This document shows positions 1 through 9,477 of a stretch of DNA of 11,428 bases, piece by piece. The position numbers were made by a program, and so were the translations under genes. The notes below the pieces were generated by a model. The model was not told the DNA's origin. It was given only the letters and a program-made list of their open reading frames with translations, and did no database searches. The DNA is from a bacterium (lineage in GTDB: Bacteria > Blakebacterota > Blakebacteria > Blakebacterales > Blakebacteraceae). The stretch spans positions 1-11,428 of the forward strand of contig JALGWK010000022.1 in assembly GCA_025774205.1 (NCBI GenBank). Reading direction: 5' to 3'. How positions within the stretch are numbered: the stretch's first letter is position 1; each line of letters opens with the position of its first letter.

Positions 1-219
1 ATAGGCGACGTTGTTTTCCTGCCGGCAGGCATCCATGCAGACAGTGCAGTCCTCACGGCACCTGGTGAGATCGATGACCATCGCCCACTTCTTGCCGGCC
101 AGGGGGCTGTCGCTTCTGACATCCCGGCCGGAACAGGAGGTGAGGAGGGGCAGGCCCATAGCTCCGGAGACGCCCGCCAGCGCGGGACCGCTCTTCTTCA
201 GGAATACTCTACGCTTCAT
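1..219 (-). CDS. dsrO: DsrO-like periplasmic iron-sulfur protein, N-terminal part (runs off left edge)
   Basis: Only the first 73 codons are present; the gene continues beyond position 1. The product starts MKRRVFLKK, a twin-arginine (RRxFLK) signal followed by a hydrophobic stretch (about residues 11-26), so it should be exported folded through Tat. The mature part has WAMVIDLTRC and then C54-X3-C58-X2-C61-X3-C65, the first 4Fe-4S ligand set typical of DsrO, the periplasmic ferredoxin-like subunit of DsrMKJOP. A possible lipobox, LTSC ending at Cys29, follows the hydrophobic segment, so this could be a Tat-exported lipoprotein (inference). The start is set by a strong GGAGGTGA ribosome binding site lying inside the last codons of dsrJ, 3 nt after whose stop this gene begins. 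DsrO should pass electrons between the DsrJ haems and a membrane subunit (DsrP in known systems), which would be encoded beyond the window. A related Tat-exported ferredoxin subunit of another complex is the alternative; the adjacent dsrJ favours DsrO. Confidence 0.85.
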   Translation of the reverse strand, partial: MKRRVFLKKSGPALAGVSGAMGLPLLTSCSGRDVRSDSPLAGKKWAMVIDLTRCREDCTVCMDACRQENNVAY

Positions 220-222
220 GAC

Positions 223-636
223 TCACCTCCTCCCCGGCAGGGTAACGTTTTCAGCAGCTGTCTCCGGGTAGTAATGGCACCCGAAGCAGTCGAGCGTCAC
301 GCTGGCTTCCGCGTGACACCGGTCACAGAACCGGTCCCGGTTCAGATGGCAGGTTCCGCATCCGGCCAGGGTGACTTCATCCCTGATCCCGTGCCGGATG
401 ACCTTGTCCCGGATCTCCTTCAGTACGTCCATGTGGCGGAAGCGCATCTCGGTGGAGTCCCTGATGCAGTTCTCCCACTGCGGATCGACCGACTCGAGAA
501 AGACTTCGGGTGTCTCGGGGGGCCTGGGAATATGGAGCCCGAACGCGCTGAGACCGATGGGCAGGAGGATGACGATCGCGAAGATGGTGGCCCAGGTGCT
601 CCGGTTCCTCTCTGTCAGGATCGTGCTGCGTTTCAT
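223..636 (-). CDS. dsrJ: DsrJ-like triheme cytochrome c, membrane anchored
   Basis: This 137-residue protein has a short cytoplasmic N-terminus, one hydrophobic helix (about residues 15-34, probably an uncleaved signal anchor) and a periplasmic domain with three CX2CH haem sites: C93-C96-H97, C104-C107-H108 and C117-C120-H121. Cys57 in WENCIRD and the following MRFRHM segment match the DsrJ pattern; in Allochromatium DsrJ a cysteine upstream of the haem motifs is a distal haem ligand, so Cys57 is the likely equivalent and His68 a further candidate ligand. Size and layout fit DsrJ (about 130-150 residues). DsrJ is the periplasmic cytochrome of DsrMKJOP, which links the quinone pool or periplasm to cytoplasmic DsrC/sulfite reductase chemistry. 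The ATG overlaps the qmoC stop (ATGA), implying translational coupling. The oddity is context: it follows qmoC rather than dsrK. Confidence 0.92.
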   Translation of the reverse strand: MKRSTILTERNRSTWATIFAIVILLPIGLSAFGLHIPRPPETPEVFLESVDPQWENCIRDSTEMRFRHMDVLKEIRDKVIRHGIRDEVTLAGCGTCHLNRDRFCDRCHAEASVTLDCFGCHYYPETAAENVTLPGRR

Positions 637-1886
637 GGCTTTGCCCCCTCTCCGGCTTCACGCCCGAACCGTTCGGCCATGACCATGGCGGTGGTTCGAT
701 AGAGCAGATGGGAGAGTTTCGAATAAGGGAGGTAGATCAGTAAGGAGAACACGAACACCAGGTGGATGAAGTAGATGACCTGCCGGTGAGGTACCATCCG
801 AAGGTAATGGAGCACCTCGGTGGCGAATCCGGTCACCACCACCAGGAAGATCGACCAGACCAGCAGCCAGTCGAAGTAACTGCTGGTGCCGGCCAGGTGC
901 CCGAAATAGAGACGTTCCCAGATCATGAGGAGACACCCGGCCAGGACCGCCAGCCCGCCGACGTTGGCCAGGAGCTTCCACGGACTCCAGAAGCTGAACG
1001 GATAGATGAAGTCACTGCCGATCAGGGGATTGACGGGGCCGGTGATGATCCAGAAGGTCACCAGGGCAAGGGAGAGGAATCCGAAGAGCACGAAGAAATG
1101 AGAGATCGAACGGGAGTGGTCGGTCTCACACTGTGTGAACCGGTCGTGCACGAGGATCTTCAGCACAACCGATCCGAGACTCGAGAGGATTCCCTTCACC
1201 GGTTGCGGGTCAGGCCCCCAGACACTCGATCCCCTCAGCCCTCTGGAGAACCTCACGATCCCGATAACCGCCGCGACGAGCGCCAGGAATCCGAAGAATC
1301 CGAAGAAGCAGTTGATGAGCCAGTGGGGCAGGGAGGGCATGAAGGAGTAGACGATCTCCTCTCCCGCCGGAGGGGAGAAACCGAGCGCGTTCCCGATTCC
1401 GTCACGGAACCGGATGGCGAGACCGAGCAGGACCGCCGGGATGGCAAGCAGGATCGGTATGAAGGCCGGCCTGGTCACCCATCGGGCCAGGAAACGGGGG
1501 AAGGCGTAGTGCTGTACGCTCTGCTCCCGCACCGCCGCCAGCACGTCTCCCGGTCGTCCGGTTCGCGGACAGTTGGTCGAGCAGTCGTTGCAGTGGTGGC
1601 AGAGCCAGACATCGGGATCCGTCATGAGCTGGTCCTTCAGGCCCCAGAGGGCCCAGGCCATCTCTTTTCGCGGGAACGGATGCAGGTCTGGTGAGAGGGG
1701 GCAGGACGCGGAACACGTCCCGCACTGGAAGCACTTCTTCAGTGACTCGCCGCCGCTGCGGCGCAGGGCCCGGATGAACTCGAGATCGGGATCGACCTTC
1801 ATCGGTCGAACCCTCGCTGTCTGCGCGAGTTGAGGCTGCTCTTCAGTCTCGGGAGTGCCGGGCGCCGTAGTCTCAACGGTCGCCAT
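633..1886 (-). CDS. qmoC: QmoC: membrane subunit of quinone-interacting oxidoreductase (HdrC-HdrE fusion)
   Basis: QmoC joins an HdrC-like ferredoxin domain to an HdrE/NarI-like haem-b membrane domain, and exchanges electrons between the quinone pool and the soluble QmoAB flavoproteins. In these 417 residues, two 4Fe-4S sites are visible, C52-X2-C55-X2-C58-X3-C62 and C96-X2-C99-X2-C102-X3-C106. About six hydrophobic helices follow (roughly 141-159, 190-212, 262-282, 304-323, 339-358, 370-388). His263, His360 and His375 lie in or beside helices and are candidate haem-b ligands. The N-terminus has an acidic, Thr/Pro/Glu-rich tail of about 30 residues before the first FeS motif. The ATG has a GAGGAG ribosome binding site 36 nt downstream of qmoB. 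No catalytic HdrD-type CCG domain is present, so this is QmoC and not a DsrMK fusion. Confidence 0.93.
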   Translation of the reverse strand: MATVETTAPGTPETEEQPQLAQTARVRPMKVDPDLEFIRALRRSGGESLKKCFQCGTCSASCPLSPDLHPFPRKEMAWALWGLKDQLMTDPDVWLCHHCNDCSTNCPRTGRPGDVLAAVREQSVQHYAFPRFLARWVTRPAFIPILLAIPAVLLGLAIRFRDGIGNALGFSPPAGEEIVYSFMPSLPHWLINCFFGFFGFLALVAAVIGIVRFSRGLRGSSVWGPDPQPVKGILSSLGSVVLKILVHDRFTQCETDHSRSISHFFVLFGFLSLALVTFWIITGPVNPLIGSDFIYPFSFWSPWKLLANVGGLAVLAGCLLMIWERLYFGHLAGTSSYFDWLLVWSIFLVVVTGFATEVLHYLRMVPHRQVIYFIHLVFVFSLLIYLPYSKLSHLLYRTTAMVMAERFGREAGEGAKP

Positions 1887-1922
1887 GGTTGCAGCTCCTC
1901 AAGAAGTCTGGCCTGTTGTCTG

Positions 1923-4205
1923 TTACATCCCCTTGAACGGGTTGTAGCCGATCTCCTCGATCAGTTCGTCGAACTTCTCGAAGATCCCGGGTAACTGCCT
2001 GAATTCATCGATGGCGAGTTCGTGGAGCTCAATGCGCTCCAGATCCATCGCCATCTGTTCCAGCTTTTCCCTGGCGTTCTTCTGTCGAACCGAGGCCAGT
2101 TCACTCCCCGTGATGAAGTGACACTGGTAATCATCTCCATACTTGCAGCCGAGGAGGATGACCCCGTCGTAGCCGGCTGACATCGCGTCAGTGATCCAGA
2201 CGTTGTTCATCGATCCAAGGCATCGGATAGGAACGACCCGGATCCACGGGCTCCCCTTGAGACGATGCTCACCCATCAGGTCGAGAGCGGGAAAGGCGTC
2301 GTTCTCGCAGGCCAGGACAAGGACCCTCGGTTTCTCATCCCACTCATCAGGGACGTTCACGGCCTTGATCATCGAACCGATCATATGGACCGAGTAATCC
2401 CTGAACGAGATGATCCGCTCCGGACAGGCGCCCAGGCAGATGCCGCACCGCCGGCACCGTGTCTCCTGCAGCAGCGGTGTTCCCTCCACATCCTCGTTGA
2501 GCATGCCGAAGGGGCACTCCTCGGTGCATCGCTTGCACTTGGTGCAGCGCGACATCTGGAATTCGGGATACGACCTGTCTCCCGCCCGCGGGTGGAGCGC
2601 CTCTCCCCGGGAGGTCATCTCGATGCACTGGATGGCCTTCAGTGCCGCTCCGGTGGCGTCGTCGATGCTTCCAGCCCCGTCGACCGGTTCCCGGACGGCG
2701 CCGGTGGGATAGATACCCGTCCGGCGGCTCTCGTAGGGGAAACAGATGAAGTGGGAGTCGGGGAAGCCGTACTCCAGCGCCGGCAGGTCGGGGCCCTGAC
2801 GGTAGACGAGGTTGAGGATCTCGGTGCCTTCGTGGTGTTTGAGGTCCTCCACCAGCTGGGCGGCCTCCTCCTTCTTCTGCTCCGAGTCTCCGTCCACCAT
2901 GGTGACGCGGGCATCCCCGAGGGTGCGGATCGCTTCTCCATCGGCGGCATTGGGGGCCATCCCGGCCGCCATCACCACCAGGTCGACCTGCACCTCGATA
3001 TCTTCGCCGAGCATGGTGTCCCGGGCCCGGAGTGTGAAGTTACCGCTCCCGTTCCGGGTCACTTCGGAGATCTCGCCCCGGGTGAGGAAAATCCCGGGAT
3101 CGTCCTGCGCCTTCCGGTAGAACTCCTCGTAGAGGCCCGGTGTCCGCATGAATTCGTAGAAGATGAAGGCTTTGGCGTCCTCATCCCCTTCCCGCAGGTA
3201 CATCGCCTGCTTCAGCGAGGTCATACAGCAGATCGAGGAGCAGTACGCCGGCGGTTCCAGACCGACACAGCCGCCGCACTGCAGGAAGGCGATGCTCTTC
3301 ACTTCCTTCCCGTCTGAAGGGCGGGTGATCTTCCCTTCCTCCTTGACCATCGCTTCCAGGTCGACGTTCAGGATGACATCATCAAGGTCGCCCCAGGAGA
3401 GGTCGCCCCGGGGGTCGTTCGGCTTCCACCCGGTGGCCTGGATGATCGCGCCCACCCGGAACTGCTCGAGGGTCTCTCCTGCCGGTTTGCCGTTCCCGGA
3501 GGAGGTGAGGGTGACGTCGAAAAGGCCGGGTGCGCCGACGATCTCACCGGTCGTGGCTGCAGTGTGAACGGTAATTCCGGAGTGGGCCTCGACCGCCTCG
3601 ATCAGCTCCCCGATACCGGTCTCTTCCAGATCGCGATAGGGAGGCCGGGTGGGGAAGGAACGATGCTGCTTCGCCAGCCAGCCGCCGAGCTGGTCGGACT
3701 TCTCCACCAGGCGGACCTGGAACCCCGACTCGGCTGCTTCCCGGGCCGCTGTCAGTCCGGCGATCCCGCCGCCGACCACGAGGATGGTCCGGTCCAGTTC
3801 CACTTCCGGATCGAAGGGCACCAGGGGCAGCATCTCGCGTACTTTGGTGAGATACATCCTCAGGTAGTCCTCGGCGGCCATCTGGGTGTCTTCCTCACCG
3901 GGTGGGAGGACCCAGATTACCTGCTCCCGGAGGCCGACCATCTCCACGATCACGTCATCGGGGAAGGCGTTGTCGGCATACCGGCGGGGTGAGATCCCGG
4001 CAATGACGACTTTCGTCAATCCTTCCGCGCTGATGTCAGCGTTGATCGCGTCGAGACCGGGCCCCTCGCAGGAGTCCACCGTTTTGCAGAACGGTACCTT
4101 GAATTCATCCGTGGCCACGGCGCAGAGGGCGTCGATATCGAGCGCCTCAGCCAGCCCGTAGCCCGTGCAGATGAAGACGCCGATTTTGTCTTCTGATTCA
4201 GTCAT
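1923..4205 (-). CDS. qmoB: QmoB: HdrA-like flavin/iron-sulfur subunit with C-terminal MvhD-like domain
   Basis: This 760-residue cytoplasmic protein matches the QmoB layout. After an N-terminal segment of about 130 residues comes an FAD-binding fold with G145-G147-G150 (VVGGGIAGLTAA). An HdrA-type cysteine cluster follows, C310-X2-C313 and C322-X3-C326-C327 (YCSSICCM). Next are two classical 4Fe-4S sites, C554-X2-C557-X2-C560-X3-C564 and C584-X2-C587-X2-C590-X3-C594. The last ~130 residues resemble MvhD/FrhD (VLVLACEND, PIRCLGSMN, GCKYGDDYQCH), the domain that delivers electrons in Hdr complexes. In sulfate reducers QmoB works with QmoA and QmoC to connect menaquinol to APS reductase; flavin-based confurcation has been proposed. 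The start overlaps the qmoA stop as ATGA, so stoichiometric coupled translation is likely. No damage is seen. Confidence 0.94.
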   Translation of the reverse strand: MTESEDKIGVFICTGYGLAEALDIDALCAVATDEFKVPFCKTVDSCEGPGLDAINADISAEGLTKVVIAGISPRRYADNAFPDDVIVEMVGLREQVIWVLPPGEEDTQMAAEDYLRMYLTKVREMLPLVPFDPEVELDRTILVVGGGIAGLTAAREAAESGFQVRLVEKSDQLGGWLAKQHRSFPTRPPYRDLEETGIGELIEAVEAHSGITVHTAATTGEIVGAPGLFDVTLTSSGNGKPAGETLEQFRVGAIIQATGWKPNDPRGDLSWGDLDDVILNVDLEAMVKEEGKITRPSDGKEVKSIAFLQCGGCVGLEPPAYCSSICCMTSLKQAMYLREGDEDAKAFIFYEFMRTPGLYEEFYRKAQDDPGIFLTRGEISEVTRNGSGNFTLRARDTMLGEDIEVQVDLVVMAAGMAPNAADGEAIRTLGDARVTMVDGDSEQKKEEAAQLVEDLKHHEGTEILNLVYRQGPDLPALEYGFPDSHFICFPYESRRTGIYPTGAVREPVDGAGSIDDATGAALKAIQCIEMTSRGEALHPRAGDRSYPEFQMSRCTKCKRCTEECPFGMLNEDVEGTPLLQETRCRRCGICLGACPERIISFRDYSVHMIGSMIKAVNVPDEWDEKPRVLVLACENDAFPALDLMGEHRLKGSPWIRVVPIRCLGSMNNVWITDAMSAGYDGVILLGCKYGDDYQCHFITGSELASVRQKNAREKLEQMAMDLERIELHELAIDEFRQLPGIFEKFDELIEEIGYNPFKGM

Positions 4206-5455
4206 CTGTTCAGGTCCTGGATAGCTTTGAGGGCAGCTGCCGTGGCTTCTTTCGTGGCGGTCGAGACGTCACAGGGATGCCGGGAGCATCCCGCGGCGTG
4301 GACACCTTCGACGCCCGTGCCTCCATCGATGAAGCCGTAATCGTCGTACTCGAGTTCGATGGGGACGGGTGCGTCGGCGGTGTTGGGGACGATACCGGTG
4401 GCCAGCACCACCAGATCGAACTGCGGAGTCGGTTTCTCCCCGGCGATGGTGTCCTCGACCTCGAGGATCAGGTTGTTCCCGTCATCTTCGCTGATCCCGG
4501 CGACCTTCCCCTTCACGAAGGTGATGTTCTCATCCTCGAGAAGGTCGTGATAGAAACTCTCCAGCCTTCCGATGGTACGGATGTCGATGTAGAAGATGGT
4601 GATCTTCGCATCTTCATCCTGCTCCCTGAGGTACCTGGCCTGCTTCAGGGAGGCCATGCAGCAGACGCCGGAACAGTAGGGGAGATGGTTCTCATCCCTC
4701 GAGCCGGCGCACTGGACGAAGGCGACATTCCCGGGCGCCTCGCCGTCGGATGGCCTGAGGATCGTGCCCCCGGTCGGCCCGCCCGGCGCTGCCAGGCGTT
4801 CCATCATGAGATTGGTGATGACATTCGGGCACTGGCCGAAGGCGAGATTCTCAAGCTTCGCCGCGTCGTAGGGACGCCAGCCGGTGGCGATGATGATGGC
4901 GCCCGCGTCGAGGTGGAATTCCTCCTCGGTCTGGCCCATATCGATCGAACCGGGTGGGGCCACTTCGGTCAGCGTCAGCATGTCCGCCTCCGAGAGTGCC
5001 TCCCGGTCCACGACATGCAGGGGAGGCCAGGCGGAGTCATGCGGATAGTAAACCGCCCCGGTTGTCCCGATCTCCATGTTGAACGTATCGGGACGTTCCG
5101 AACTCAGCTGTTCAATGACCGAGCCATCGAGAGAATGATTCCCGGTGACATAGCGGGGGCTCGTTTTAAGCCTTACCCGGAAATCACCCGCTGATCCCGT
5201 GATCTCTTCCACAGTGGTCAGGGTATGTACGGTGATCCGGGGGTTGCTGCGGATTCTGCGGACATTGATCTCGAATCCGCAGGAGGGAGGACACATCTTG
5301 GGGAAATACTTGTGCGATCGTATAACGCGGCCCCCGAGAAAGGCTTCTTTTTCGATGAGGACCACGGAATAGCCGACCTCTGCGGCCTCGACGGCCGCAG
5401 TCATCCCCGCAATACCTCCTCCAATAACCAGGATCGGCTTCGCGTCAGGATTCAT
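4202..5455 (-). CDS. qmoA: QmoA: HdrA-like FAD subunit of quinone-interacting oxidoreductase
   Basis: First gene of the operon; 417 residues from the chosen ATG, close to the usual QmoA size. The product is a soluble HdrA-like flavoprotein. It has a Rossmann FAD motif at the N-terminus (VIGGGIAGMTAA, G12-G14-G17), the HdrA cysteine region C249...C261-X3-C265-C266 (PYCSGVCCMASLKQA) and a C-terminal FAD-contact segment (VHAAGCSRHPCDVSTATKEA). Unlike QmoB it lacks ferredoxin and MvhD domains, which separates the two paralogues. The reading frame stays open to an ATG at 5527, but the start at 5455 is preferred: it has GGAG about 7 nt upstream, and its protein begins right before the FAD motif as in relatives. 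The longer start would also place the candidate operator and -10 element inside or against the coding region. It overlaps qmoB by 4 nt. Confidence 0.94.
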   Translation of the reverse strand: MNPDAKPILVIGGGIAGMTAAVEAAEVGYSVVLIEKEAFLGGRVIRSHKYFPKMCPPSCGFEINVRRIRSNPRITVHTLTTVEEITGSAGDFRVRLKTSPRYVTGNHSLDGSVIEQLSSERPDTFNMEIGTTGAVYYPHDSAWPPLHVVDREALSEADMLTLTEVAPPGSIDMGQTEEEFHLDAGAIIIATGWRPYDAAKLENLAFGQCPNVITNLMMERLAAPGGPTGGTILRPSDGEAPGNVAFVQCAGSRDENHLPYCSGVCCMASLKQARYLREQDEDAKITIFYIDIRTIGRLESFYHDLLEDENITFVKGKVAGISEDDGNNLILEVEDTIAGEKPTPQFDLVVLATGIVPNTADAPVPIELEYDDYGFIDGGTGVEGVHAAGCSRHPCDVSTATKEATAAALKAIQDLNR

Positions 5456-5508
5456 GCCACACTCCGTGGTAAGGACGGGCACATTTTTCAATCGGCAGAT
5501 TGCGGCCC

Positions 5509-5537
5509 ATTCTGTGATAAATTTCACAATTTGTCAA
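5509..5537 (-). promoter_or_regulatory. Candidate sigma70-type promoter of the qmoABC-dsrJO operon
   Basis: Read leftward, a perfect TTGACA (5537-5532) is followed after 17 bp by CAGAAT (5514-5509; 4 of 6 to TATAAT). The implied transcript starts near 5502 and leaves about 47 nt before the qmoA ATG at 5455. The spacer contains the TGTGA-N6-TCACA site. Consensus matching only; no start-site data. Confidence 0.5.
5513..5528. promoter_or_regulatory. Perfect CRP/FNR-family operator, TGTGA-N6-TCACA
   Basis: The sequence TGTGATAAATTTCACA has perfect 5-bp arms. Read on the minus strand it is TTGTGA-N6-TCACAG, very close to the operator recognised by CRP and by HcpR-type CRP/FNR regulators, which control hcp and sulfate-reduction genes in Desulfovibrio (established knowledge). 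It lies between the -35 and -10 of the candidate qmo promoter, a position that usually means repression. No regulator of this family is encoded in the window, so the identity of the binding protein is inference. Confidence 0.6.
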
Positions 5538-5558
5538 AGAGCATATATGCTCTATGCT
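5531..5558 (+). promoter_or_regulatory. Candidate rightward promoter for the haem-sensor kinase operon
   Basis: TTGTCA (5531-5536, 5 of 6) is followed after 16 bp by TATGCT (5553-5558, 4 of 6). The implied start is near 5565, giving a leader of about 100 nt before the kinase ATG. Its -35 covers almost the same bases as the -35 of the leftward qmo promoter, so polymerase could probably not occupy both at once. The spacer contains the 16-bp palindrome. Confidence 0.4.
5538..5553. promoter_or_regulatory. Perfect 16-bp palindrome, probable operator
   Basis: AGAGCATATATGCTCT is fully self-complementary, and its right half is followed by a repeated ATGCTCT (5554-5560). It sits just upstream of the leftward -35 and inside the spacer of the candidate rightward promoter, so one bound dimer could repress the kinase operon and contact polymerase at qmo. 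I do not recognise the cognate regulator. Confidence 0.45.
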
Positions 5559-5637
5559 CTTCGGAAGAGAAGGACACCCCGCAAAAGAGGGGCACCCGGC
5601 CGCTCTCAGTCGCTCCGAAGGCAAGCGGTCGGACCCG

Positions 5638-5681
5638 GAAGACCATGGATGATCACGTAGAAGACCATGGATGAACACGTA
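5638..5681. repeat. 22-bp tandem duplication across the kinase start codon
   Basis: Two adjacent 22-nt units (5638-5659 and 5660-5681) are identical at 21 of 22 positions; the single difference is T5653 versus A5675. Each unit contains GAAGACC followed by ATGGATGA, so the kinase start region is present twice. Since 22 is not a multiple of 3, the upstream ATG (5645) is out of frame with the kinase. Confidence 0.9.
5645..5674 (+). other. Nine-codon upstream open reading frame created by the tandem duplication
   Basis: From the first ATG the reading is MDDHVEDHG then TGA at 5672-5674, which overlaps the kinase start at 5667. GGAAG lies 4 nt upstream of this ATG, slightly better than the signal in front of the kinase ATG. 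If translated, it could deliver ribosomes to the kinase start by stop-start coupling. It may equally be a neutral by-product of the repeat. Confidence 0.25.
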
Positions 5682-7628
5682 ATAGAAGAGGAGAGTCTCA
5701 GGCCGGGGCTCCGCAGCGCCCTGCGGAGAATGCGCCTGGTCTGGAAGGTCAACGGCTTCTTCCTCCTGATCCTGGTCTCTGCCCTCGGCATCCTCGGCTA
5801 CATCGGCAACCTCGATCTTGAGCGGGCGGAGATCAGATCCGCCCGCGAGACCTCCATCAACAGTTCCGAGCTGATCATCAGCCGACTTGACGAGATCATG
5901 ATGGGCCATGCACCGGATGAGCTGCCCGACCTGGTGAACCGGATGGCGACGGAGAACCCGGTCTACCGGTACATCCGTCTGCTGGCTCATTCAGGACGGG
6001 TAATCGTCACGCAGCTGCCTGCTGACACGCTCATGGTCACGGAGGAGGAGTGGCCCTGCAACGTCTGCCACGTGGCTCCGGATCAGCTCGCGGAGGTAAC
6101 CGCTGACATGTGGAGTGAGGTGGTGGAGTATGACGGGGAGGGGCGCGCCCTCTCGGTGGCCACGCAGATCCTCGTCGAAGATGGGTGCAGTACCGACATC
6201 TGTCATACGGGACTGGCGACCGGTGCCGTGCTTGCGGTCCTCCAGGCAGATTTCAGCCTGGAGAGGGTAGACAACCTCATCACCCAGCAGAACCGGAACA
6301 CGGCCCTGGCGATCCTCATCTCCCTCATCGTCGGCATGGCCGTCACCTGGATGATGACCGAGCGTCTTCTCGGCCGGCGAATCAGGTTGATGCGTGAAGG
6401 GGCGATACGGCTGGCCGAAAAGGATTTCAGTTTCAGGTTCGAGGATACGACCGGTGACGGTCTCTCGGAAGTAGTCAGCGTCTTCGATAACATGGCCTCC
6501 GAGCTGTCGAGCACCATCACCGAACTCATGGACACCAAGGAGTACCTGCAGGGCATCGTCGAGAACTCCGCCGACATCATCATCACCGTAGGCCCGGACG
6601 GATTGATCCGTTCCTTCAACGCCGGCGCGGAGCATGCCCTCAGGTATAGTCGTGACGAGGTCATCGGACAGAACATCGAAATGATCTTTGCCGATCCCCG
6701 TGACAGGGCGAAAGCCATCGAACAGATGAGGAACGATGAGCATGTGGTGAACTACATGACCCGGTTCGTGACGAAAGATGGCGAAACGAGACGGGTGATG
6801 AACACCCTCTCCCGGCTCCGGGCCGCGGATGGAACGCCTATCGGCACTATGGGCATCAGCAAGGATATCACCGAGGAACTCCAGCTCCAGGTCCAGCTGC
6901 TCCGCTCGAAGCGGATGGCGGCCCTGGGCCAGGCCCTGACCGGGATCCAGCACTCGATCAAGAACATCCTCAATGTCATGAAGGGCGGCTCCTACATGGT
7001 GAAGCTCGGACTGGCCAAGGAGGATATGCCGCTGGTGACCGAAGGATGGGATATGGTCCGGAAGGGCATCGACGAAATGACCGATATGTCGATGAGCATG
7101 CTCGATTTCGCCAAGACGAGGAAACTGAATCTGAAACCTGTCGACCTGACCGAACTGGCTATCAAGGTGCACGACCTGAGCCGGGTCAGGATCGGCGATC
7201 TGGGCATCGGCCTTGAACTCGAGATCGAACCCGAACTGCCGCGGGTCATCTGCGACAACGAGGGGATCCGGTCGGTGGTCATGGACCTGCTTTCGAATGC
7301 GATGGATGCCTGTGCCTGGAAAGATTACCCTGATGGGGAGAGCCCCCGATTGACGTTGCGGGTGGTCCAGGCGGAGCTGGACAGGCGGATTGAGATCCAG
7401 GTGATCGATAACGGGGAGGGGATGTCGGAAGAGGTACAGAGCCGGATTTTCATGCCGTTCTTCAGTACCAAGGAGAAGAAAGGTACCGGGATGGGACTGG
7501 CGGTGGTGAACAGGATAGTCGAGGCGCACGAAGGCGAGACGATCGTCGAATCCGTGCCCGGGGAAGGTACGACGTTCAGAGTGTCCCTGCCGATCCAGGG
7601 GCCGAGCATAACAGAGGAGCACCATTAA
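5667..7628 (+). CDS. Membrane histidine kinase with periplasmic c-type haem sensor, HAMP and PAS domains
   Basis: This 653-residue kinase has one transmembrane helix at about residues 28-47, a periplasmic sensor of about 165 residues, a second helix (about 213-233), HAMP (about 234-288), PAS/PAC (about 297-404), a DHp region and a C-terminal ATPase domain. The sensor holds two covalent haem motifs, C131-X2-C134-H135 and C174-X4-C179-H180; CX4CH is a recognised variant in multihaem cytochromes. This suggests periplasmic redox or ligand sensing. The H-box is GIQHSIKN with His429 as the likely phosphorylation site, different from the common HE(I/L)xN form. N544 is the N-box Asn, D581-G583-G585 form G1 and G606-G608-G610 form G2. 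The stop overlaps the next ATG by 1 nt (TAATG). The ATG at 5667 has a weak ribosome binding site; Met22 (5730) is an alternative that still keeps both helices. It is divergent from the qmo operon, suggesting it senses that respiratory chain (inference). Confidence 0.9.
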   Translation: MDEHVIEEESLRPGLRSALRRMRLVWKVNGFFLLILVSALGILGYIGNLDLERAEIRSARETSINSSELIISRLDEIMMGHAPDELPDLVNRMATENPVYRYIRLLAHSGRVIVTQLPADTLMVTEEEWPCNVCHVAPDQLAEVTADMWSEVVEYDGEGRALSVATQILVEDGCSTDICHTGLATGAVLAVLQADFSLERVDNLITQQNRNTALAILISLIVGMAVTWMMTERLLGRRIRLMREGAIRLAEKDFSFRFEDTTGDGLSEVVSVFDNMASELSSTITELMDTKEYLQGIVENSADIIITVGPDGLIRSFNAGAEHALRYSRDEVIGQNIEMIFADPRDRAKAIEQMRNDEHVVNYMTRFVTKDGETRRVMNTLSRLRAADGTPIGTMGISKDITEELQLQVQLLRSKRMAALGQALTGIQHSIKNILNVMKGGSYMVKLGLAKEDMPLVTEGWDMVRKGIDEMTDMSMSMLDFAKTRKLNLKPVDLTELAIKVHDLSRVRIGDLGIGLELEIEPELPRVICDNEGIRSVVMDLLSNAMDACAWKDYPDGESPRLTLRVVQAELDRRIEIQVIDNGEGMSEEVQSRIFMPFFSTKEKKGTGMGLAVVNRIVEAHEGETIVESVPGEGTTFRVSLPIQGPSITEEHH

Positions 7629-8077
7629 TGCCGAAGAGAGTCCTTGTGGTAGATGATGATGAGAGCACACGTCGCTTCCTCACGGTCGCCCTGGAAGAGA
7701 ACGGGTATGAGGCCGTGACTGCCGAGGATGGTGATGATGGTTTGAAGAAGGTCCAGGAATCGCCCCCCGACCTGATCCTGCTGGATGTCATGATGCCGAA
7801 GAAGACCGGATTCACCCTCTTCAAGCAGCTCCGGAAGACTGAAGAGTACTGTGATATCCCGGTGATAATGCTGACCGGAGTGGCGGGGGCTCTCGAAGAG
7901 GACGAGGAACGGGCCGACGGCGATACCATGGAAAGCCCGTTTGACAGCCTGCGGGACACTCTTGCCAAAGCCATTACGAAAATGCGTGAAGAAGGACTGG
8001 TAAAGCCGGAGGTCTTCATCGACAAACCGATCGATCCGGAGGACCTCATTGCAGCCGTGAAGGGACTCATCGGATAG
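7628..8077 (+). CDS. Stand-alone response-regulator receiver protein with an internal insertion
   Basis: A 149-residue CheY-like receiver. The acidic pocket is D9-D10-D11 (VVDDDE), the phosphoacceptor is D53 (LLDVMMP), the switch Thr is T83 (IMLTG) and the conserved Lys is K133 (DKPIDP). There is no DNA-binding or enzymatic output domain. The distance from T83 to K133 is 50 residues, against about 22 in CheY, so roughly 28 extra residues, acidic and then probably helical (LRDTLAKAITKMREEG), are inserted between beta4 and beta5. Its ATG overlaps the kinase stop by 1 nt and an intrinsic terminator follows, so it is almost certainly the kinase's partner. Output must go through protein contacts or a further phosphotransfer step. 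Confidence 0.92.
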   Translation: MPKRVLVVDDDESTRRFLTVALEENGYEAVTAEDGDDGLKKVQESPPDLILLDVMMPKKTGFTLFKQLRKTEEYCDIPVIMLTGVAGALEEDEERADGDTMESPFDSLRDTLAKAITKMREEGLVKPEVFIDKPIDPEDLIAAVKGLIG

Positions 8078-8112
8078 CGGTCGGGGAGCCGGCGGCCATG
8101 TTCCATCCTGAT

Positions 8113-8150
8113 GCCCGGGCGGGAATGTCCCCGTCCGGGCGTTTTCTGTT
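8113..8150 (+). terminator. Intrinsic terminator after the kinase-receiver operon
   Basis: GCCCGGGCGGG (8113-8123) pairs with CCCCGTCCGGGC further right (through 8140), giving a GC-rich stem of about 11 bp with one G-T wobble and a short loop. It is followed by GTTTTCTGTT. It lies 36 nt after the receiver stop, as expected for the end of a two-gene transcript. Confidence 0.85.
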
Positions 8151-8374
8151 CGAAGCAGGTTCCACCATTGGCCGGCCAATGGAAGGGAAGCATCACACGT
8201 GATACTACCGGCGCTCCTGTTCACGTTCGTTACCATCCTCCAGGAACCATCATCCGACAGTTGGGCCTGCCCGGGGATCCGACCATGGAGATCATCGGGA
8301 ACTTCATCCGTCGATATCGGCGGTAGCCATCCCGCCTGCCGGCAGTTCCTGTGAAACCGTTTCCCCTTCCGGGA
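8151..8374. other. Gene-free spacer rich in short palindromes
   Basis: No supportable gene is seen between the terminator and the DUF427 hairpin; the open frame crossing it (8111-8326, plus) begins inside the terminator and has no ribosome binding site. The spacer holds a perfect 18-bp palindrome (8165-8182), ATCAC-AC-GTGAT containing CACGTG (8192-8203), a near-perfect 16-bp inverted repeat centred on CGATATCG (8308-8323) and CTGCCGGCAG (8336-8345). I cannot name a clear promoter. Confidence 0.6.
8165..8182. promoter_or_regulatory. Perfect 18-bp palindrome CCATTGGCCGGCCAATGG
   Basis: All nine positions of each arm match. With no loop it is better explained as a dimeric DNA-binding site than an RNA hairpin. 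It lies 15 nt beyond the terminator tract, about 230 nt before the DUF427 gene, and is followed 9 nt later by a second symmetrical element (8192-8203). The binding protein is unknown. Confidence 0.4.
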
Positions 8375-8411
8375 CACTCACCTGTAAACCATGAAAGGGT
8401 GGAGGTGAGTG
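8375..8411 (+). promoter_or_regulatory. RNA hairpin sequestering the DUF427 ribosome binding site
   Basis: CACTCACCT (8375-8383) is perfectly complementary to AGGTGAGTG (8403-8411). The right arm contains most of the Shine-Dalgarno GGAGGTGA (8401-8408) that precedes the ATG at 8415. CCA (8389-8391) can also pair with TGG (8400-8402), extending the stem past a bulge. The fold would hide the ribosome binding site, so translation may depend on melting or on a bound factor. This is a prediction from complementarity only. Confidence 0.5.
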
Positions 8412-8414
8412 CGG

Positions 8415-8696
8415 ATGAAAGCGATCTGGAATGAAACGGTCATCGCGGAGAGCGATGAAACCAGGGTGGTGGAGCGGAACCATTATTTCCCGCCCGAGAG
8501 CATCAACCGGGAATACTTCGTCGAGTCGGACAATAATACGATCTGCCCGTGGAAGGGTGAGGCGAGTTATTACCATGTGGAGGTAGATGGCGAGGTGAAC
8601 CAGGATGCCGCCTGGTACTATCCGGAACCGAGCAAGGCCGCGGCCGAGATCAGGGATCACGTGGCGTTCTGGAAGGGTATTCGCGTGGAGGAGTAA
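8415..8696 (+). CDS. DUF427 domain protein
   Basis: A 93-residue protein filling one DUF427 domain. Recognisable family segments are MKAIWN, NHYFPPESI, CPWKGEASYY and DAAWYYPEPSKAA, ending in VAFWKGIRVEE. DUF427 proteins are small, single-domain, probably cytosolic and of unknown biochemical function; the conserved Trp-Tyr-Tyr-Pro and Cys-Pro-Trp-Lys patches suggest a ligand pocket, but no role should be assigned. A GTG at 8409 is in frame, but it lies only 3 nt after GGAGG; the ATG at 8415 has correct spacing (9 nt) and gives the usual family N-terminus. The stop lies inside a 17-bp tandem repeat. It appears monocistronic. Confidence 0.9.
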   Translation: MKAIWNETVIAESDETRVVERNHYFPPESINREYFVESDNNTICPWKGEASYYHVEVDGEVNQDAAWYYPEPSKAAAEIRDHVAFWKGIRVEE

Positions 8697-8733
8697 GACA
8701 CGTGGAGGAGTAAGACGCGTGGATGAGTCTGAC
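8684..8733. repeat. 17-bp tandem repeat, about 2.9 copies, over the DUF427 stop codon
   Basis: Units are 8684-8700, 8701-8717 and a diverged partial unit 8718-8733. The first two differ only at the last base. Each intact unit carries GTGGAGGAGTAAGAC, so the last codons and TAA stop of the DUF427 gene are copied downstream. The protein itself ends in the first unit. Likely replication slippage. Confidence 0.88.
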
Positions 8734-8757
8734 TGGATGTAATATTAATATGGCATA

Positions 8758-9477
8758 ATGCAAGATGTAACCGCCATGTTGATCAAGAAACTCGTCACCC
8801 TTGTCCTTACCGCTCTCTCACTCTGTCGCCCGATCTCACTCGGCCCGACAGCTGAATCCCGAATCCAGGAAATCGATCGTGTCGCGCTGGATCGGATCTC
8901 GGAGATGGTAGATAGCTTCATCGAGGCCGGTTATGTAGTCGGTGCCGAGCTCCTGATCATCCACGACCGACGGACTGTTCTCCATAAGGCATACGGCGAT
9001 CGGGATATCGAAGCTCAGCTGCCGATGGAGCGGGGGACGCTGTTCAACATCCGTTCGATGGCCAAGCCGATCGTGGGATCGATAGCCCCGTTCACGATCG
9101 GCAGCGGCACGACCTGGTACTCAACTCCTGAGGATTATGCGCGTCTGCTTTCAGCCTGGCTGGATGAGGGAATGGTGGGGGGAGAGCAATGGCTGTCGAA
9201 AGAGTCTGTACAGCGGGCTCTCACGCCACGATCGATTATGCCATATGCCAGCCAGGTACCGGAGTGTGAGGTCATGTACGGTCAGATGTGGCAGGTATAT
9301 GTGCGCACCAATGAGGCTGAACGAGGTGAGCGGGCCGCCTTCGGACATAGCGGTTCCGACGCAACGTACAGCTGGGTCTGGCCGGAACATGGACTGGTGG
9401 TGCTCTATTTCACGCAATCGAGGGGACAGCGAACCCGCCTGCTGCTCGAACCGTATCTTGTTAATATATTTCGGTGA
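8758..9477 (+). CDS. Serine hydrolase of the class C beta-lactamase-like family with a large internal deletion; probable pseudogene
   Basis: The 239-residue reading starts with a signal-like segment (KK then LVTLVLTALSL, about residues 10-22). Family signatures remain at both ends: SMAK at S100-K103 is the nucleophile motif SxxK, and HSG at 197-199 with SWVWPEHGLVVLYFTQS resembles the C-terminal HxG region. Normally about 150 or more residues, including the YxN catalytic motif, separate SxxK from the STPEDYARLLSAWL segment seen here; these abut near residue 107. Intact relatives are about 350-420 residues. The deletion is in frame, so the frame stays open, but the product should lack a full active site. 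No ribosome binding site is visible at 8758 or at the alternative ATG 8776. Assembly collapse is the alternative to true gene decay. Confidence 0.7.
   Translation: MQDVTAMLIKKLVTLVLTALSLCRPISLGPTAESRIQEIDRVALDRISEMVDSFIEAGYVVGAELLIIHDRRTVLHKAYGDRDIEAQLPMERGTLFNIRSMAKPIVGSIAPFTIGSGTTWYSTPEDYARLLSAWLDEGMVGGEQWLSKESVQRALTPRSIMPYASQVPECEVMYGQMWQVYVRTNEAERGERAAFGHSGSDATYSWVWPEHGLVVLYFTQSRGQRTRLLLEPYLVNIFR

Follow-up and report, generated by a model that had tools for sequence, protein, structure and literature searches.

The 11,428-nucleotide stretch of DNA analysed here (the window) carries an operon in which the genes of a Qmo complex run directly into those of the DsrJ-DsrO-DsrP module. We mapped 22 stand-alone copies of this hybrid operon, all in the same gene order and some cut by contig ends, in uncultured bacteria of five phyla: Gemmatimonadota, Acidobacteriota, Zixiibacteriota, Planctomycetota and the window's own small phylum. 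In these operons, the periplasmic haem-c/iron-sulfur/quinone module of the Dsr complex would have been taken over by a specialised second Qmo complex. On balance, we lean towards a single QmoABC-DsrJOP complex that would pass electrons from a periplasmic cytochrome or menaquinol to APS reductase; gene order, co-inheritance and retained cofactor ligands all suggest assembly as one unit.

The window is the whole of contig C15 of genome G000 (3.09 Mb in 527 contigs, 85.9% complete), and its minus strand carries qmoA-qmoB-qmoC-dsrJ-dsrO', with the contig edge cutting dsrO (Table 1). The qmoA and qmoB genes overlap by 4 nt, a gap of 36 nt separates qmoB from qmoC, qmoC and dsrJ overlap by 4 nt, and 3 nt lie between dsrJ and dsrO. 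Coordinates and family models thus confirmed the sequence-only reading that these five genes are consecutive with overlaps or minimal gaps. The ATG start taken for qmoA corresponds to the start in the same-genus copy, and a GTG at 5527 is also in frame. QmoB has two C-terminal 4Fe-4S motifs, and QmoC scored 386.7 bits against NF038018, above the curated cut-off of 300. DsrJ reached 63.1 bits against NF038038, which is below the cut-off of 100 yet its sole family match, and the DsrJ of the other hybrids tested also stayed below that cut-off (47-71 bits). The full-length DsrO of the same genus scored 286.6 bits against NF045797 (cut-off 200). Sequence searches of the PDB with the window DsrJ and a canonical DsrM as queries gave zero matches, and therefore no template for the Dsr complex.

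Table 1. Genes in the window, with coordinates counted from its first nucleotide.
Feature	Position	Strand	Description
qmoA (hybrid type)	about 4202..5455	-	HdrA-like FAD protein; Pyr_redox_2/HdrA family matches
qmoB (hybrid type)	1923..4205	-	HdrA-like FAD protein with FlpD/MvhD domain; FlpD 114.6 bits
qmoC (hybrid type)	633..1886	-	HdrC-like double 4Fe-4S domain fused to haem-b membrane domain
dsrJ-like (hybrid type)	223..636	-	membrane-anchored tri-haem cytochrome c; three CxxCH and conserved Cys57
dsrO, N-terminal 73 aa (signal region and first Cys motif)	1..219	-	runs off contig; NF045797 44.7 bits
sensor histidine kinase, HAMP-PAS-HATPase	5667..7628	+	divergent from operon; CNVCH and CSTDICH in N-terminal sensor part
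single-domain response regulator	7628..8077	+	Response_reg 81.6 bits

The rest of the operon is most likely to be found on contig C439 of this genome, whose end holds the last 84 aa of a DsrO followed by a DsrP-like gene (397 aa; L015, 4930 down to 3452), so that about 89 aa of DsrO would be missing between the two contigs, a gap of about 270 bp. Downstream of the DsrP-like gene, C439 carries an OPT-like (oligopeptide-type) transporter gene (L015, 1327-3321). In another genome of the same genus (G001; L030, contig C270), the entire qmoABC-dsrJ-dsrO-dsrP operon lies on one contig and encodes a DsrO of 246 aa. A dsrP beyond the contig edge, which the sequence-only reading had entertained, is thus accounted for by C439 and by the complete dsrJOP of G001. 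The operon contains neither dsrM nor dsrK; qmoC lies immediately upstream of dsrJ, here as in the remaining stand-alone copies. Furthermore, no CCG-type (HdrD-like) cytoplasmic subunit is encoded in the window operon or the other mapped copies. Neither aprBA nor sat adjoins the window operon, whereas the canonical copy on contig C11 does have them.

The canonical sulfate-reduction genes are present in the same genome. Contig C11 carries aprA-YkgJ-qmoABC-sat-OsmC-dsrC-dsrM-dsrK', and contig C450 carries 'dsrK-dsrJ-dsrO-dsrP-dsrA. We considered a genome devoid of dsrMK and rejected it on the strength of these two clusters; the proposal that dsrM and dsrK are lacking therefore holds for the operon and fails for the genome. 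QmoC occupies the position of DsrM and DsrK in the gene order, but canonical dsrMKJOP and qmoABC are both encoded elsewhere in the genome, and a role of QmoC as substitute for DsrMK in the organism is not supported. DsrK has an established role in the DsrC reaction of DsrMKJOP, and since the hybrid operon encodes no DsrK-type catalytic subunit, its product could not replace DsrMK at DsrC. Because the canonical apr-qmoABC-sat-dsrC-dsrMKJOP-dsrA set is also present, and because a second QmoC was found in 22/22 hybrid-bearing genomes (as a partial gene in G014), the window operon is a second Qmo with its own J-O-P, that is, an extra complex rather than a replacement.

Several other gene sets were seen alongside. 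A YkgJ-like cysteine-rich protein is encoded between aprA and qmoA (L017, 8921-9853), as in most canonical operons of these phyla, and the stand-alone hybrid operons are without it. Contig C175 of G000 (L018, 637-5596) holds a third Qmo-like set, perhaps of the 'type II' Qmo kind, that comprises a FlpD-like protein, two HdrA-like flavoproteins, a small HTH-like protein and a QmoC-like haem-b protein with only 27% identity to the window QmoC. Contig C395 encodes a 983-aa fusion of two HdrA/QmoA-like halves (L019, 602-3553), followed by a CCG-type protein and a further HdrA-like gene at the contig edge (L019, 4294-5439 being also assigned to this region). Hmc-like sets occur on C464 (L238, 936-5835), C414 (L239, 915-5814) and C527 (L237); they contain a DsrK/HdrD-like protein, a small membrane protein and an NrfC-like Fe-S protein, to which the C464 and C414 sets add a membrane protein of ~645 aa with six CxxCH motifs.

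We scanned GTDB species genomes with the window QmoC, followed by phylum-wide scans, and confirmed new operons by mapping; the count of 22 leaves out the variant G627 and the interrupted copy G015. On the contigs from the GTDB scan, which came from Gemmatimonadota, Acidobacteriota, Zixiibacteriota and Planctomycetota, dsrJ, dsrO and dsrP come after the hybrid qmoC for as long as the contig lasts. QmoC was found in 7/395 Gemmatimonadota genomes (hybrid in 3 of those 7), 20/396 Acidobacteriota genomes (hybrid in 5 of those 20) and 45/132 Zixiibacteriota genomes (hybrid in 10 of those 45); in the Zixiibacteriota scan, hybrid QmoC scored 477-545 bits and the others ≤292. The joining of a Qmo module to DsrJO(P) in one operon, as proposed from the window, is therefore borne out: the qmoC-dsrJ adjacency recurs in all 22 stand-alone copies, and dsrP comes next wherever the contig allows. 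An assembly or binning artefact, or a decaying duplicate, might be suspected from MAG data, from a window that stops inside dsrO and from G015, where the hybrid qmoC is interrupted and dsrA is absent. Such an origin is barely credible, since it is refuted by the identical order in independent genomes of five phyla; moreover, QmoC is 85% identical between the same-genus copies (canonical copies diverge to a similar degree), the reading frames are open and the cofactor ligands are kept. The identical junction likewise rules out a misassembly between qmoC and dsrJ. A separate dsrMKJOP does exist, as foreseen in the case that the window genes were non-conserved duplicates, but that case is rejected because the extra dsrJ and dsrO are conserved across phyla. 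G015 was not counted as evidence of decay, because its chromosome record looks scaffolded and the interruption probably stems from scaffold joins; the apparent lack of a canonical dsrJ in G006 is no true absence either and looks like a scaffold break within dsrP.

The hybrid co-occurs with sulfate-reduction genes. A dsrA above cut-off was found in 21/22 hybrid genomes and in the variant G627. Among the genomes compared, dsrA was not seen to be tied more closely to the hybrid than to canonical Qmo; most genomes with canonical Qmo alone have it as well, and the hybrid is therefore an accessory found in a minority of the genomes that carry sulfate-reduction genes rather than a marker in its own right. 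In two Acidobacteriota loci (L148 and L234), a canonical aprBA-qmo cluster and the hybrid operon lie on a single contig with the kinase pair between them.

In maximum-likelihood trees, hybrid QmoA, QmoB, QmoC, DsrO and DsrP each formed one fully supported clade (100/100 for QmoB) distinct from the canonical copies that these genomes also carry, and the family trees thus set the QmoC and DsrO of the hybrid off as distinct lineages, a point on which the sequence-only reading had looked to phylogeny. In an enlarged tree, 23 hybrid-type QmoC fell on one side of a 99/99 branch. The hybrid QmoC clade neighbours the canonical QmoC from this group of phyla, a position consistent with a duplication after which J-O-P became attached. 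Hybrid DsrP lies on a very long separate branch and scored 67-79 bits against NF045798, below the cut-off of 350 (442.7 for a canonical copy); membership of the NrfD family and an NrfD-type fold with ten long helices are kept. Inter-subunit distance correlations were moderate only (0.26-0.76).

These data bear on whether the operon encodes one complex or two. The hybrid QmoABC could act alone, with the hybrid DsrJOP either binding to DsrMK or having no partner; co-transcription would then reflect only a need for both under shared conditions. Canonical Qmo functions without JOP, canonical dsrMK is available in the same genomes, and the distance correlation between QmoC and DsrP (0.47) is moderate only. 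Against this, the hybrid O and P clades are distinct from the DsrMK-associated canonical copies, the P branch being very long, a complete canonical JOP already accompanies canonical DsrMK, and the QmoC-DsrJ junction is kept in five phyla, often with overlapping genes. We therefore regard two separate complexes as quite improbable and continue with a single QmoABC-DsrJOP complex.

For each subunit, 18-23 hybrid sequences were compared with 8-21 canonical sequences (alignment A1 for QmoA). Both [4Fe-4S] motifs of the inserted ferredoxin-like domain were gone in 18/18 hybrid-type QmoA, which have no CxxC at all, whereas all canonical QmoA tested retain at least the first motif. The AlphaFold model of the window QmoA (pLDDT 87) gave its best PDB matches to HdrA (8rwn, 8rvy and 5odc; TM 0.91-0.92) over its length, and since the predicted fold still matches HdrA, the domain appears to have stayed while the clusters went. 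In two canonical QmoA (L150, 13032-14297; L162, 7412-8695), the first [4Fe-4S] motif is kept and the cysteines of the second are lost; the second QmoA cluster seems dispensable in some canonical Qmo as well. Hybrid QmoB differs from canonical QmoB in the change of the N-terminal Cys16 to Tyr and the loss of Cys71; its C-terminal cluster motifs and FlpD cysteines are retained. In hybrid QmoC, all 8 cluster cysteines and the membrane-part histidines 247, 263, 375 and 393 are retained. Every hybrid DsrJ read has three CxxCH motifs, with C57 and H68 invariant between hybrid and canonical DsrJ, and hybrid DsrO retains its cluster cysteines. Given ligand retention in QmoC, DsrJ and DsrO against the losses in QmoA and QmoB, the parts in the periplasm and the membrane appear competent for redox chemistry, and the end of the complex that faces the cytoplasm is, as judged from these ligands, rebuilt. 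This putative cofactor change is absent from the canonical copies compared here. The motif loss in QmoA, which the sequence-only reading had not noted, argues against a simple carry-over of a canonical bifurcation-type module.

The same losses mean that the cytoplasmic partner and electron path may differ from those of canonical Qmo, and the partner need not be APS reductase. One six-subunit transmembrane complex could instead serve another partner, for example a soluble Hdr-like or a ferredoxin/NADH-linked one, as a general conduit of the Tmc/Hmc-like kind. Loss of the QmoA [4Fe-4S] motifs in all hybrids and of Cys16 and Cys71 in QmoB would suit such a role, as would stand-alone operons that mostly do not lie beside apr or sat and an adjoining regulator that scores best against the DVU0259 family. 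Other observations point back to APS reductase: Fe-S-free QmoAB occur in an apr operon (L043), a J-O module occurs in an apr-type context (G627), the hybrid co-occurs with sulfate-reduction genes, and the window's own genome already has Hmc-like sets, including NrfD-type proteins with six CxxCH motifs. We consider a different partner unlikely, though it is the most serious of the alternatives. The below-cut-off DsrJ and DsrP scores, the reliance on single-contig bridging cases and the moderate distance correlations also speak against the favoured reading of one complex acting on APS reductase.

The two bridging cases, each a single MAG contig that could be chimeric, connect the hybrid with canonical operons. 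In G627 (Acidobacteriota; L236), a 5.9-kb contig (C256) carries YkgJ-qmoA-qmoB-qmoC-dsrJ-dsrO, with apr not on the contig. It combines a canonical [4Fe-4S]-containing QmoA and a canonical QmoB with a hybrid-type QmoC that is the sole QmoC match of that genome and sister to all other hybrid QmoC; G627 is thus an intermediate between canonical and hybrid operons. Because YkgJ sits between aprA and qmoA in canonical operons, the Qmo-JO of G627 probably serves APS reductase. In L043 (Planctomycetota, 4415-9248), an Fe-S-free QmoA and a hybrid-type QmoB are found in a sat-aprBA-YkgJ-qmoABC operon with a non-hybrid QmoC, no J-O-P and a DUF3034 protein next. Taken together, the two cases point to separate acquisition of the J-O-P module and of the Fe-S-free QmoAB, each of which would be able to work at the level of APS reductase. 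From these contexts and the shared contigs of L148 and L234, we infer APS reductase as the partner.

In most copies the hybrid operon is accompanied, on one side or the other, by genes for a sensor kinase and a response regulator. The regulator scored 91.7 bits against NF045717 (the DVU0259 family), its best family and below the cut-off of 160; we take the DVU0259 family regulator to lie near tmc in Desulfovibrio vulgaris. CxxCH and CxxxxCH motifs are present in the N-terminal sensor part of the kinase in the window and eight other loci, whereas most Zixiibacteriota kinases are shorter and without these haem-c-like motifs. The motifs and the gene neighbourhood suggest that the kinase may bind haem c and control the operon. 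A haem-c-like sensor in this place would also suit periplasmic redox sensing by an electron outlet running in reverse, in which sulfite or sulfide oxidation, or the disposal of excess reductant, would send electrons from Qmo on the cytoplasmic side out to cytochromes of the periplasm and on to terminal acceptors. Sulfur oxidisers, Chlorobi among them, also employ Qmo and Dsr complexes (PMC10504309). The canonical cluster of these genomes looks complete for sulfate reduction, and nothing among the genes identified here marks an oxidative partner set; we regard reverse flow as very improbable.

In the single complex that we favour, DsrJ (three c haems) and DsrO (4Fe-4S) would face the periplasm, DsrP (10-helix NrfD type, quinone) and QmoC (haem b) would lie in the membrane, and the 4Fe-4S domain of QmoC, QmoB and QmoA (flavins) would face the cytoplasm. 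Electrons would pass from a periplasmic cytochrome partner and/or menaquinol to the cytoplasmic Qmo flavoproteins and on to APS reductase, moving towards the cytoplasm during sulfate reduction. The complex would operate alongside canonical QmoABC and DsrMKJOP as a second electron route to APS reductase, perhaps switched on by the haem-c sensor kinase. More tentatively, it could represent a new class of respiratory complex, a kinase-controlled periplasmic-cytochrome:APS-reductase oxidoreductase whose cytoplasmic path was rebuilt after loss of the QmoA clusters; this is doubtful at present, and if true, sulfate activation would be fed straight from periplasmic donors or extracellular partners. 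Qmo and DsrMKJOP are usually seen as separate electron inputs to sulfate reduction, at APS reductase and DsrC, respectively. Conservation of the chimera suggests a portable periplasmic JOP module that can be wired to Qmo, and in lineages with sulfate-reduction genes outside Desulfobacterota it may let electrons from periplasmic cytochromes reach the APS step directly. The systematic loss of the QmoA iron-sulfur motifs, with the same-genome canonical copies as controls, offers a natural experiment on the role of these clusters in Qmo.

No description of a qmoABC-dsrJOP operon was found in the open-access full-text literature searched. The broad survey of Dsr and Qmo evolution by Neukirchen et al. 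(2023; PMC10504309) sets out two types of Qmo, I and II, along with QmoAB-HdrBC variants, and the portion of it covered here contains no link of Qmo to DsrJOP. The hybrid is a chimera of two known complexes. Like QmoABC (type I in PMC10504309), it has the order QmoA-QmoB-QmoC, a QmoC above the curated cut-off and HdrA-like flavoproteins; a FlpD domain in QmoB and HdrC and haem-b domains in QmoC are shared as well. Unlike QmoABC, it is a second copy, mostly not linked to apr, followed by dsrJOP and placed in a separate clade, with a QmoA that lacks the two [4Fe-4S] motifs and a QmoB that lacks two N-terminal cysteines. With DsrMKJOP (HmeABCDE) it shares the J-O-P order, a tri-haem DsrJ with an extra Cys, a DsrO above cut-off and a 10-helix NrfD-type DsrP, but QmoC replaces DsrM and DsrK in the gene order, there is no CCG-type catalytic subunit for DsrC, DsrJ and DsrP fall below their curated cut-offs, and DsrP has its very long separate branch. 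The QmoAB-HdrBC and QmoAB-HdrD variants likewise recombine Qmo modules with other modules; in them, Hdr proteins replace QmoC and the membrane link is thought to be lost (PMC10504309). The hybrid, in contrast, gains a second membrane and periplasmic module. In overall plan it resembles Tmc and Hmc. These complexes of Desulfovibrio have a periplasmic cytochrome c, a 4Fe-4S protein, haem-b subunits (with an NrfD-type subunit too in Hmc) and an Hdr-type cytoplasmic part; that part is an HdrD/CCG protein in Tmc and Hmc, whereas in the hybrid it consists of the QmoAB flavoproteins.
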